From Schumannella luteola (GTDB taxonomy: Bacteria; Actinomycetota; Actinomycetes; Actinomycetales; Microbacteriaceae): a stretch of DNA of 64,000 bases. Location: positions 1,364,001 to 1,428,000 of the forward strand of contig NZ_JACBZY010000001.1 of assembly GCF_013408685.1 (NCBI RefSeq), given 5' to 3'. The position numbers and the translations under genes were made by a program. The notes below the pieces were generated by a model, which saw only the letters and a program-made list of their open reading frames with translations, was not told the DNA's origin and made no database searches. Of the stretch, positions 47,541 to 52,399 are shown one piece after another (position 1 is the stretch's first letter; each line of letters opens with the position of its first letter).

Positions 47541-49010
47541 GTGAGCAAGCCCATCGACGTCGCCCTGATCGGCGGCGGAATCATGAGTGCGACCCTCGGA
47601 ACCCTGCTGCAGCGCCTCGAGCCCGGCTGGTCGATCTCGATCTTCGAGAGCCTCGGCGACATCGCGCAGGAGTCCTCCAACCCGTGGAACAACGCGGGCA
47701 CCGGCCACTCGGCTCTCTGCGAGCTGAACTACACGCCCGAGAAGAACGGGCAGATCGACGTCAGCAAGGCGATCGAGGTGAACGAGCAGTTCCAGGTGTC
47801 GCGCCAGTTCTGGTCGTACCTGGTCGACGAGGGTGCGCTGCCCGACCCGAAGGCGTTCATCAACGAGGTTCCGCACATGAGCTTCGTGTGGGGCGAGAAG
47901 AACGTCGACTACCTGCGTCGCCGCTTCGACGCGCTCAAGGACCACCCGCTCTTCGCCGGTATGGAGTACAGCGAGGATGCGAAGGTCATCCGCTCGTGGG
48001 CCCCGCTGCTGATCCCGGGTCGCCGCAAGGACCAGCCGATCGCCGCGACCCGCATCGCCGCGGGAACCGACGTCGACTTCGGCGCCCTGACCCGTCTGCT
48101 GGTCGGCGCGATGACCGACAAGGGCGCGAAGCTGAAGACCGACCACCGGGTGATCGGCCTCAAGCGCACCAAGGACGGGCTGTGGAAGATCCGCATCCGT
48201 CACGAGATCGGCGGAACGGTGCTCGAGGTCACGGCGCGCTTCGTGTTCGTCGGTGCCGGAGGCGGCGCGCTCAACCTGCTGCAGAAGTCGGGCATCCCTG
48301 AGATCAAGGGCTTCGGCGGCTTCCCGATCAGCGGCGAGTTCCTGCGCACCGACGACCCCGAGGTCGTCGCCCAGCACGCGGCGAAGGTCTACGGCAAGGC
48401 GTCGGTCGGCGCTCCGCCGATGTCGGTTCCGCACCTCGACACCCGCGTCGTCAACGGCCAGGCGAGCCTGCTCTTCGGGCCCTACGCGGGCTTCTCGACG
48501 AAGTACCTCAAGAAGGGCTCGCTGCTGGATCTCTTCCAGGCACTGCGCCCGCACAACATCTCGACCTTCCTCGGCGCCGGGCTCAAGAACCTCGACCTGG
48601 TCAAATACCTCGTCGGCGAGGTCTTCGCCAGCCGCGCCAAGAAGATCCGTGCGCTGCAGGAGTTCGCGCCGAACGCGAAGGGCTCTGACTGGCGCCTCAT
48701 CACGGCCGGCCAGCGCGTGCAGGTCATGAAGAAGGATGCGAACGGCAAGGCCGTCATCCAGTTCGGCACCGAGGTCGTCTCGGCCGCCGACGGCTCGATC
48801 GCCGGTCTGCTCGGCGCCTCGCCGGGCGCCTCGACGGCCGTGCCGATCATGCTGACGCTCGCCGAGAAGTGCTTCCCCGACAAGATCGCGGAGTGGACGC
48901 CGAAGCTCACCGAGATGGTGCCGAGCTACGGCGCCACCGTCGGCGCGGACGAGAAGGTCGCTGCGGCGACTCTCGGGCGCACCGCGGCGGCGCTGCAGAT
49001 CCAGCCCTGA
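47541..49010 (+). CDS. mqo: Malate:quinone oxidoreductase
   Basis: 489 residues; membrane-associated FAD enzyme of the TCA cycle that passes electrons from malate to quinone. N-terminal FAD site VALIGGGIMSATLGTLLQRLEPGW, EESSNPWNNAGTGHSALCELNYTP-like motif (here QESSNPWNNAGTGHSALCELNYTP), VFVGAGGGALNLLQKSGIPE, FGPYAGFSTKYLK and the terminal ASPGASTAVPIMLTLAEKCFP. GTG 47541 follows TAGACT (47529-47534) by six bases; leaderless start likely. No neighbouring gene has an obvious functional link. Confidence 0.95.
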   Translation: MSKPIDVALIGGGIMSATLGTLLQRLEPGWSISIFESLGDIAQESSNPWNNAGTGHSALCELNYTPEKNGQIDVSKAIEVNEQFQVSRQFWSYLVDEGALPDPKAFINEVPHMSFVWGEKNVDYLRRRFDALKDHPLFAGMEYSEDAKVIRSWAPLLIPGRRKDQPIAATRIAAGTDVDFGALTRLLVGAMTDKGAKLKTDHRVIGLKRTKDGLWKIRIRHEIGGTVLEVTARFVFVGAGGGALNLLQKSGIPEIKGFGGFPISGEFLRTDDPEVVAQHAAKVYGKASVGAPPMSVPHLDTRVVNGQASLLFGPYAGFSTKYLKKGSLLDLFQALRPHNISTFLGAGLKNLDLVKYLVGEVFASRAKKIRALQEFAPNAKGSDWRLITAGQRVQVMKKDANGKAVIQFGTEVVSAADGSIAGLLGASPGASTAVPIMLTLAEKCFPDKIAEWTPKLTEMVPSYGATVGADEKVAAATLGRTAAALQIQP

Positions 49011-49174
49011 CCGGCCCGCTGACGCCCCGCCGCCGGGGTTGATCTGCGACCGCCGACGTTCCGGTCGCGTCGGGAGTCGGCATCCGCCCATCCGCTGACT
49101 ACGCTGAGCCCATCGCGCTTCTCAGCGCGGACCGTCGCCCGCGCCGCGCGCGAGAGGCGACGCGGGGGAGCGCG

Positions 49175-50218
49175 ATGACGCGCAGAGAGCAGGGTGCGAT
49201 GGCGCAGCGGGTGGGGATCCGCGAGGTGGCCCGGCAGGCTGGCGTCTCGGTCACGACCGTGTCGCACGCGCTCAACGACCGCGGCCAGGTCAGCGCCGCC
49301 ACGCGCGAGCACGTCAAGCGCATCGCCGGCGAGCTCGGCTACGCCCCCAACCGCATCGCGAGCGCCCTGCGCAGTCAGCGTTCGCGGCTGATCGGCTTCG
49401 TCAGCGACGAGATCGCGGCGACCCCCTTCTCGGGCCGGGTGATCACGGGCGCGCAGGATGCGGCATCCGAGCTCGGGCTCATGCTCATGGTGGTCGACTC
49501 GGCGCGCGACGACGGGCTCGAGGAGCGCCAGATCGAGACCCTGCTCGCCCAGCAGGTCGACGGCGTCGTCTACGCGCGCATGTTCCACCAGCTGGCCGAT
49601 GTGCCGGCGACGCTCGGCGCGCATCCGACGATGCTGGTGGATGCGGTCGACCGTGCCGGCGCGCAGCCGTCGATCGTGCCCGACGAGGTGCAGATCGGTC
49701 GCATCGCGACGGAGCACCTCATCGAGGCCGGGCACCGGCAGATCGCGCACCTCACCCTCGAGCAGCCGGGCATGGCCCGCGACGGCCGCGAGGCGGGGTT
49801 CCTGGCGACGATGCGCGAGTGCGGGCTCACCGGCCCGGTCATCCGCGTGCCCGGCATCGGCGACGCGGTCGCGGGGCGTCGCGCGGCGACCGAGCTGCTG
49901 CGTCGGCATCCGCAGATCACGGCCGTCCTGTGCTTCAACGACCAGATGGCGATGGGCGTCTACCAGGTCGCCCAGGCGGCCGGCTTGCGCATCCCACAGC
50001 AGCTCTCGGTCGTCGGCGTCGACGACTTCTGGCCGATCTCCGAAGGACTCGACCCGGTGCTGACCACGGTCGCGCTGCCGCACTACGCGATGGGGCGGCT
50101 CGCGATCACCCGGCTCGAGGCGCTCATCACCGGACAGGCGGATGCCGCTCCGCGCGAAGCGAGGCTCGCCTGCGAGCTGGTGCGGCGCGCGTCGGTGACG
50201 GCCCCTCCTGCCCCCTGA
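49175..50218 (+). CDS. LacI-family transcriptional regulator
   Basis: 347 residues. N-terminal helix-turn-helix GIREVARQAGVSVTTVSHALNDRGQVSAATREHVKRIAGELGYAPNRIASALRSQRS (hinge AxALRS present), then a periplasmic-binding-like effector domain (RLIGFVSDEIAATPFSGRVITGAQDAASELGLMLMVVDS, AVLCFNDQMAMGVYQVAQAAGLRIPQQLSVVGVDDF). Such proteins repress sugar-use genes, but no sugar transporter or glycosidase adjoins it. GGGGGAG at 49165-49171 places the start at ATG 49175; ATG 49199 is an alternative. TACGCT at 49100-49105 may be its -10 box, giving a leader of about 60 bases. Confidence 0.88.
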   Translation: MTRREQGAMAQRVGIREVARQAGVSVTTVSHALNDRGQVSAATREHVKRIAGELGYAPNRIASALRSQRSRLIGFVSDEIAATPFSGRVITGAQDAASELGLMLMVVDSARDDGLEERQIETLLAQQVDGVVYARMFHQLADVPATLGAHPTMLVDAVDRAGAQPSIVPDEVQIGRIATEHLIEAGHRQIAHLTLEQPGMARDGREAGFLATMRECGLTGPVIRVPGIGDAVAGRRAATELLRRHPQITAVLCFNDQMAMGVYQVAQAAGLRIPQQLSVVGVDDFWPISEGLDPVLTTVALPHYAMGRLAITRLEALITGQADAAPREARLACELVRRASVTAPPAP

Positions 50219-50347
50219 TTCCAGCCATATGCCGGTTCGGGCATGATCTCGACCCGGGCTTCTCGCGCCTCCGCGCGGATCGCTGCTCGACCCTGCCGCG
50301 GGAGCCGCCCGTGTCGCGTGGCCGCGGGCAGAAACGAAGAACGGCTG

Positions 50348-50376
50348 TTGACGAACTCGCCGAGCGGGTCTAGCGT
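50348..50376 (+). promoter_or_regulatory. Promoter of the ABC-F gene
   Basis: TTGACG (50348-50353), exactly 17 bases, then TAGCGT (50371-50376). It is among the best -35/-10 pairs in the window. Transcription should begin near 50383, more than 300 bases before the ABC-F start codon. Confidence 0.72.
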
Positions 50377-50384
50377 CGCTCCCC

Positions 50385-50396
50385 GTGAAGATCTGA
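50385..50396 (+). CDS. Three-codon leader reading frame (M-K-I-stop)
   Basis: GTG AAG ATC TGA begins about two bases after the predicted transcription start. In this window, start codons near the predicted 5' end are used often, so this tiny frame could be translated as an almost leaderless leader peptide. The first bases of an inverted repeat start inside its stop codon. Its function as a ribosome sensor is inference. Confidence 0.4.
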   Translation: MKI

Positions 50397-50483
50397 GACT
50401 CCGTCCGACCCGCGTCTGAGGCAGCTGCCCGGCGGGTGACGTGCGCCGATCCGGCGTCCCGTGCGAGTGGCGCGGGGAGTCTC
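50395..50483 (+). promoter_or_regulatory. Leader inverted repeat overlapping the mini-ORF stop
   Basis: GAGACTCC (50395-50402) is perfectly complementary to GGAGTCTC (50476-50483). The left arm overlaps the stop codon of the three-codon frame, so a ribosome held there would mask it and free the right arm. Intervening sequence has additional GC-rich pairing potential, such as GCCGATCCGGC. Confidence 0.5.
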
Positions 50484-50649
50484 TTCCGAATCCCGGTGGC
50501 CTGACGGTCCGGCGGTCCTCCGCCCCGCCGTTCCGATCACCATCCGACGACCGATCCCGGCCGACGACCTCCGCATCCTATGGCGGCGTCGCGACCGGCG
50601 TCGCTCGTCACCACGATCCCGGACGAACTCCACGCCCGCTCCCGGATCC

Positions 50650-50692
50650 GGCTCCGGCGCCGATTCCGACGCCGAACCGAAGGAGCCCTCTT

Positions 50693-50694
<2 letters not shown>
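50650..50694 (+). terminator. Attenuator-like hairpin covering the ABC-F ribosome site
   Basis: GGCTCC (50650-50655) plus GGCG (50656-50659) pair with CGCC (50670-50673) and GGAGCC (50682-50687), followed at once by CTCTTTT. The right arm contains the GGAG of the ribosome site AAGGAG (50680-50685), and the T-run enters the TTG start at 50693. If formed, the hairpin could both end transcription and hide the ribosome site. Confidence 0.6.

Positions 50695-52399
<1,705 letters not shown>

Follow-up and report, generated by a model that had tools for sequence, protein, structure and literature searches.

The ABC-F gene and its leader

The window (the whole 64,000-nucleotide stretch of DNA analyzed here, to which the positions refer) carries an ABC-F ATPase gene preceded by a promoter, a three-codon mini-ORF and a long leader. 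Table 1 shows the features of the locus. The promoter and the mini-ORF were at the places given by the first-pass annotation, and the mini-ORF was identical in two related genomes, G001 and G002 (the latter of the same genus). The window genome and G001 were identical over 110 nt, from 27 nt before the mini-ORF start to 83 nt after it, and diverged downstream of that block, where one 1-nt indel was found.

Table 1. Features of the ABC-F locus in the window
Feature	Sequence	Positions	Strand	Basis or remark
Promoter	TTGACG, 17 nt, TAGCGT	50348-50353 and 50371-50376	+	Letters read directly
Mini-ORF	GTG AAG ATC TGA (Met-Lys-Ile-stop)	50385-50396	+	Letters read directly; no Shine-Dalgarno sequence seen
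Arm	GAGACTCC	50395-50402	+	Starts within the stop codon; in the position that the anti-RBS arm takes in relatives
P1, 5' strand	CCCGCGTCTGAGGC	50409-50422	+	Family alignment
P1, 3' strand	GCCCGGCGGG	50427-50436	+	Family alignment
Probable relic of an older RBS and start	GGGGAGTCTCTTCCGAATCCC	50474-50494	+	Contains the arm partner; relic status inferred
Arm partner	GGAGTCTC	50476-50483	+	73 nt between arm and partner; letters read directly
Hairpin over the Shine-Dalgarno sequence	GGCTCC/GGAGCC	50650-50655 and 50682-50687	+	
Shine-Dalgarno sequence	AAGGAG	50680-50685	+	Covered by the hairpin
ABC-F ATPase gene	TTG start, 568 aa	50693-52399	+	Profile matches

The ABC-F protein scored 447.7 bits against the NCBIfam model of the TlrC/CarA/OleB/SrmB group (NF000171), whose curated cutoff of 800 was not reached, and 338 against the general ribosomal-protection ABC-F model (cutoff 380). 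Since both scores were below the cutoffs, the protein lies near these families, nearest to the TlrC/CarA/OleB/SrmB group, and outside their thresholds. The window's own genome is a single contig of 3.75 Mb, in which the next-best full-length matches were 36% and 33% identical. The TTG start was supported by TTGCGATCC in G001, G002 and the related leader L118 and by the 1-nt indel in the G001 leader, on account of which an N-terminal extension to GTG 50441 was rejected. Upstream of the leader (47541-50218), the window has a frame that looks mqo-like by eye, together with a LacI-type regulator. Several relatives have a similar 3' end immediately before the leader (by eye), so the LacI gene of the window may be an insertion.

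A TANNNT element ending 6 to 10 nt ahead of the mini-ORF start was found in 105 of 115 leaders (70 from the family and 45 wider), the window included, compared with 2.9 expected, and a loose pattern found a -35-like word in only 60 of the 115. By our own count the window promoter has 8 of 12 consensus letters, so a promoter scan with a threshold of 9/12 listed none at this leader. At the usual distance from a -10 element to a transcript start, the mini-ORF would be leaderless or have a 5' untranslated region of about 3 nt or less. The window transcript is predicted from sequence to start at about 50382-50384, and its mini-ORF would thus be leaderless or nearly so. Leaderless translation fits the promoter spacing and the scarcity of Shine-Dalgarno sequences: one of at least four letters preceded only 6 of 115 mini-ORFs, compared with 96 of 115 ABC-F starts, which were themselves chosen partly by this sequence.

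A mini-ORF and a conserved stem in related leaders

A protein search of 398 family genomes found a match at E <= 1e-100 in 88 of them, from 32 of 85 genera. The count of 88 is an undercount, since G094, G274 and G351 also carry ABC-F genes. The upstream DNA was examined in 70 of the 88, namely, the best 71 by score less G177, whose gene starts at a contig edge; the 17 left out were lower scoring. All 70 leaders had a mini-ORF of 2 to 4 codons ahead of the ABC-F gene. Sixty-three mini-ORFs were given by a pattern; the other seven, and replacements for the pattern picks in L126 and L144, were read manually, so that nine were hand-picked. The starts were GTG (36) and ATG (34), and the stops were TGA (42), TAG (15) and TAA (13). 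Three codons were the most frequent length (53 leaders), followed by two (14, all Met-Lys-stop) and four (3); five-codon frames in L203 and L206 extended the overall range to 2 to 5 codons. The second codon was AAG in 53 of the 70 leaders, and the third codon and the length varied, which agrees with the earlier suggestion that such a frame senses a block of initiation or early elongation rather than a particular peptide.

The mini-frame was also found when the search began from the conserved stem P1. When P1 was located first, without reference to any ORF (63 of 70 leaders), a frame of 2 to 3 codons ended 8 to 16 nt before it in 59 of 63 leaders, compared with 2.2 in shuffles. Conservation of the mini-frame, which the first-pass annotation had proposed as a check, was found in relatives. 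An earlier count of 61 of 63 (2.1 expected) was superseded because the leaders had partly been chosen for having the ORF.

The best-conserved part of the window leader was the stem P1, which is absent from the first-pass annotation. In relatives, CCCGCGYCYGNGGC and GCCCGGCGGG followed the mini-ORF at 2 to 142 nt from each other (trusted rows, with L133 and L138 left out). In 42 compact leaders, 99.2% of P1 cells paired, and the outer helix had both-sided changes in four of five pairs (13 cells). For the share of paired cells, the numbers of double changes and the covariation score of P1, none of 500 shuffles did as well; the number of further pair types was matched by 128 of 500 shuffles, and the inner helix hardly varied and was uninformative on covariation. 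P1 was unrecognized by pattern in seven of the 70 leaders (L118, L125, L133, L138, L148, L153 and L156), and L118, L148 and L153 had an altered form of it by eye. In L100, L102, L109 and similar Met-Lys-stop leaders with long P1 loops, the 3' strand of P1 was seen by eye to be flanked by GGGCGCTCC upstream and GGAGCGCCC downstream; pairing of these two could compete with P1 or form a knot with it.

Two positions in the internal loop of P1 were G in 63 of 63 leaders, with C between them in 62 of 63 and CG opposite in 62 of 62. This near invariance exceeds the needs of a plain spacer helix, as would be expected if P1 bound a protein or a small molecule like a riboswitch and the mini-ORF merely marked leaderless initiation. 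That reading is very improbable, given that no family leader lacks the mini-ORF and that the targets are nearly all ABC-F genes, which have a ribosome-drug function. As defined across these leaders, the element is a mini-ORF of 2 to 5 codons, often Met-Lys-x-stop or Met-Lys-stop and usually without a Shine-Dalgarno sequence, followed by the stem CCCGC..GCGGG.

The covariance model R1, built from 42 family leaders, was used for whole-genome searches at the family, order and class levels. R1 matched the window at 50385-50436 (E 1e-17), the window sequence being part of the training set. In the family, 52 of 398 genomes had one match each at E <= 1e-6, and an ABC-F gene lay behind all 52. Forty-two of these matches were training sequences; among the other ten, seven lie beside a gene from the protein search, and three (G094, G274 and G351) were read and also precede ABC-F genes. 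In the order, 100 of 396 genomes matched at E <= 0.01, many of them weakly. Among the matches listed, ABC-F genes followed 24 of 29 inspected new loci, in seven families besides that of the window (22 called by a P-loop pattern, L176 and L182 by eye). In the class, 28 of 394 genomes matched at E <= 1e-5, and 21 of 25 new loci precede ABC-F genes; two others, from one genus, precede a small ORF, and two look like chance.

R1 was also run on 12 actinobacterial loci that the protein search had given; only Catellatospora sichuanensis (L009), a named member of the group, matched at E <= 0.1. Arthrobacter L015 had ATG AAG TCC TAA by eye and no R1 match. Rfam gave no match at E up to 1 for window positions 50330-50800 and none at E up to 0.1 for 16 loci. 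A second R1 match in the window's genome (122350, E 1.9e-5) had no ATG or GTG start and was taken as chance. The R1 matches without ABC-F genes (L177, L181, L187, L188, L189, L207 and L214) were likewise treated as chance; against this, GTG/ATG-AAG-x-stop occurs in L181 (E 2.3e-7) and in L207, and the match in L177 had an E of 6.5e-10.

Several other arrangements were seen. L227 (at about 1076, reverse strand), L195 and L197 had GTG ATC CTC TGA and a stem GCCCAC..GTGGGC before a small ORF that is not ABC-F. The small ORF (MRNVFPY...) was alike in both genomes, a helicase-like frame lay nearby in L227 (by eye), and a 36-aa piece of the ORF had no match in Pfam. Tandem ABC-F genes were found in L231 and in the Streptomyces plasmids L233 and L235. 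In each of them, R1 matched across the interval that precedes the second gene, with the stop codon of the first gene standing where the mini-ORF would be. The first ABC-F gene of L233 and L235 stands behind a frame ending in DDISG-stop, like the tiaA uORF as far as the accessible text describes it (PMC12421871). A frame of that type, M-A-G-DDDISG-stop, also precedes the ABC-F gene of Nonomuraea gerenzanensis (L234, from 3305), which had no R1 match.

We then considered the spacing, measured with strict anchors in 107 leaders. The distance from the start codon to the P1 loop was 26 to 27 nt in 15 of 17 two-codon frames and 26 to 29 nt in 75 of 85 three-codon frames; it was 25, 27 and 28 nt in the three four-codon frames and 27 and 28 nt in the two five-codon frames, and eight leaders had 19 to 23 nt. 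Per nucleotide of ORF, the slope was -0.76 for the distance from stop to P1 and +0.24 for that from start to P1, and the overall spreads were little different (sd 2.10 and 2.36). By analogy with the are5sc and tiaA uORFs, on which ribosomes were toeprinted at the start, a ribosome held there could account for the constant spacing, and so could a lack of indels. At close to an even chance, these leaders form an RNA family whose leaderless ORF, down to Met-Lys-stop in size, is a ribosome-occupancy gauge anchored at the start codon, the peptide being irrelevant. The state sensed would be a ribosome that is stuck at initiation or at the first peptide bond and whose leading edge lies at P1.

Predicted pairing of the leader with the ribosome-binding site

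In many leaders the stretch from the stop codon onward complements the ABC-F RBS, as in L104 (ACCTTCTTTC with GAAAGAAGGT), L166 (GAGGCAC with GTGCCTC), L167 (GACATCA with TGATGTC) and L198 (ACACCACC with GGTGGTGT). The mean energy of the leaders' own duplexes was -13.25 kcal/mol in the 70 family leaders, compared with -11.68 kcal/mol for swapped ones (sd 0.29), and -16.12 compared with -11.68 kcal/mol (sd 0.45) in the 45 wider leaders, with 0 of 10,000 permutations reaching the observed value in either set; since the relatives are not independent, the corresponding P values are too small. The ABC-F starts in these tests were chosen partly by Shine-Dalgarno sequence, and L211, which precedes an ABC-F gene and has no recognized mini-ORF, was left out. 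Taken one at a time, 40 of the 70 family leaders paired better with their own RBS than with the average swap, and 30, the window and G001 included, did no better; for the 45 wider leaders the numbers were 41 and 4. When the mini-ORF was masked, mean predicted RBS accessibility went from 0.35 to 0.43-0.45 in 69 family leaders (control windows, 0.36) and from 0.32 to 0.43-0.44 in the 45 wider leaders (control, 0.32). A gain above 0.1 was predicted in only 24 of 69 and 25 of 45 leaders, compared with 5 and 1 in the controls.

In the window, the arm GAGACTCC and its complement 73 bases on were present as first described. A perfect 8-bp partner arose by chance in 11% of shuffles over the rest of the leader and in 1.9% within 105 nt, and the GAGACTCC/GGAGTCTC stem taken alone is therefore merely suggestive. 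The partner lies in GGGGAGTCTCTTCCGAATCCC, which resembles the present window RBS AAGGAGCCCTCTTTTGCGATCCCC and is probably a relic RBS; it lies about 210 nt upstream of the start now in use. The would-be start at the relic is TTC at 50484, 87 nt after the mini-ORF stop; among the eight next relatives (L091-L098), the assigned ABC-F start is 85 to 89 nt after that stop in all but L096, where the distance is 71 nt, and in G002 it is 146 nt. The arm pairs with the relic at -15.6 kcal/mol and with the present RBS at -9.8, which ranks 57th of the 70 family leaders. By these comparisons the window leader looks derived, its arm pairing with the relic rather than with the present RBS. After the relic, at 50496-50504, the window has GTG GCC TGA and G001 has ATG GTC TGA, possibly a second two-codon frame or a chance occurrence.

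The hairpin over AAGGAG, followed by CTCTTTT, was also as the first-pass annotation had it, and CTCTTTTG runs into the TTG at 50693. Compensatory changes in these two stems had been put forward as a check on them; in G001 the GAGACTCC helix and the hairpin each retain their two arms, the hairpin with unchanged letters, and the GGCTCC side of the hairpin is missing in G002. The whole leader did not fold unusually well (z -1.47, with 7 of 100 shuffles equally good), and its fold was dropped as evidence because it was no better than shuffles.

The first-pass annotation had also proposed that a ribosome on the mini-ORF masks the arm and refolds the leader. When the window mini-ORF was masked through its last codon, the expected number of GGCTCC:GGAGCC pairs in the computed ensemble fell from 3.53 to 0.12, as proposed, but RBS accessibility did not rise in the computed fold (from 0.48 to 0.40 or 0.38), and opening was likewise absent in G001 and G002. 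GGCTCC pairs over the Shine-Dalgarno sequence at -12.9 and could pair with the relic at -10.7; the latter pairing was absent from the masked window ensemble. These pairings would allow a four-segment relay of the erm type in the window's lineage, with the arm (1), the relic (2), GGCTCC (3) and the Shine-Dalgarno sequence (4) each pairing with the next. The hairpin was lost without relic:GGCTCC pairing and without net opening, so the relay is a possibility at most. Control may instead have been partly lost.

The relic, the low-ranking arm pairing and the absence of a predicted opening would also be expected if, in the window strain, the switch were broken or weakened and the ABC-F gene, with about 210 nt inserted ahead of it, were roughly constitutive. 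The 110 nt shared by the window genome and G001, while later parts differ, and the retention of both arms of each helix in G001 argue against such a loss, which we consider unlikely though worth bearing in mind.

Mode of control and relation to known leaders

We propose that the element is probably an attenuator through which ribosomes control the translation of an ABC-F ribosome-protection gene. The transcript would begin at or a few bases before the ORF of 2 to 5 codons, which would be translated leaderless. Without drug, ribosomes would clear the mini-ORF quickly, the arm would pair with the ABC-F RBS, the junction would close over P1, and translation would be low. With a drug that stops initiation or formation of the first peptide bonds, a ribosome would be parked on the mini-ORF, covering the arm and not P1, and the RBS would be freed. 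Pleuromutilins, lincosamides and streptogramin A would be the expected drugs. This proposal draws on the sequence, namely, the mini-ORF, the promoter position, the compensatory changes in P1, the set-wide arm/RBS complementarity and the association with ABC-F genes; we infer the transcript start, mini-ORF translation, stalling, drug spectrum and induction. The possible relay step in the window's lineage is the weakest part of the explanation.

It was first proposed that stalling instead prevents an intrinsic terminator just ahead of the ABC-F start. The window has the GGCTCC/GGAGCC hairpin followed by CTCTTTT, masking the mini-ORF removes that hairpin from its ensemble, and lmrC, vmlR and are5sc/tiaA are ABC-F genes under transcription attenuation in the accessible accounts of them. 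However, only two of the 115 leaders had a T-run as long as 4 between mini-ORF and gene start, the other 113 having none above 3, a terminator scan called none in the window or G001, the T-run is broken in G001 (CTCGTTT), and CTCTTTTG is common to the window and G002 though the GGCTCC side is not. The terminator thus found no support, and transcription attenuation appears improbable. Since the arm pairs with the RBS itself in many relatives, translation attenuation fits better.

On the other hand, a stalled or absent 5' ribosome may alter Rho loading or RNA decay, a Rho-dependent or coupling-type control that would leave RBS access unchanged. The window leader, with 296 nt from stop to start and no predicted rise of RBS accessibility, would suit such control, as would the 48 of 115 leaders longer than 90 nt. 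In 65 of the 115 leaders, including 41 from the wider set of 45, however, the distance from stop to start is only 60 to 90 nt, which is short for Rho loading, and the set-wide arm/RBS complementarity would be left unexplained. We therefore regard this mode of control as having little likelihood.

Translation attenuation has precedents in Firmicutes. Ahead of the ABC-F genes cplR, vmlR, vmlR2 and lsaA, uORFs of the consensus MR[I/M], MIN, MK[L/Q] and MAGN are described, the cplR leader sequesters the Shine-Dalgarno sequence, and translation attenuation is reported for cplR and vmlR (PMC10201436, PMC9226507, accessible portions). These systems are alike in having a tri- or tetrapeptide uORF before an ABC-F gene and belong to another phylum. 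As far as those portions go, the cplR and vmlR leaders have an intrinsic terminator and the vmlR uORF (MIN) has a predicted Shine-Dalgarno sequence, unlike the element described here, and the two-codon frames and P1 of this element were not found described for the cplR/vmlR type (PMC10201436, PMC9226507).

Closer in phylogeny, the Streptomyces ABC-F genes are5sc and tiaA have uORFs (MLV in are5sc), and toeprints on both leaders show ribosomes stalled by LSAP drugs at the start codon of the uORF (PMC12421871, accessible portions). They differ in that their uORFs have an RBS, the leaders measure 232 and 194 nt, and a terminator/antiterminator is present; their frames are MLV and MVGDDDISG, and no P1 was found described in the accessible text (PMC12421871). 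In lmrC of Streptomyces lincolnensis, disruption of uORF2 is described as giving constitutive expression; this drug-induced attenuation of an actinobacterial ABC-F gene is similar, but it acts on transcription in the part of the report available (PMC8546547). The whiB7/wblC leaders, likened here by partial description only, are alike as actinobacterial uORFs on an antibiotic-resistance regulator and have another target. No description of leaderless 2- to 5-codon frames with P1 was found in the accessible portions of six reports (PMC8546547, PMC10201436, PMC12421871, PMC11550727, PMC10219788, PMC9226507), and no paper on an ABC-F leader peptide in Microbacterium was found, in searches whose scope mostly excluded the subscription literature.

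Inducible ABC-F resistance has been studied in Firmicutes and a few Streptomyces. The leaders described here, from genomes across the window's class, appear to follow the same logic with frames down to two codons, mostly no Shine-Dalgarno sequence and a conserved stem. The program uORF4u, which from the accessible description annotates Shine-Dalgarno sequences and uses a minimum of nine nucleotides, may miss such frames. A two-codon leaderless sensor would let one ask which drugs hit the first peptide bond of a leaderless start.
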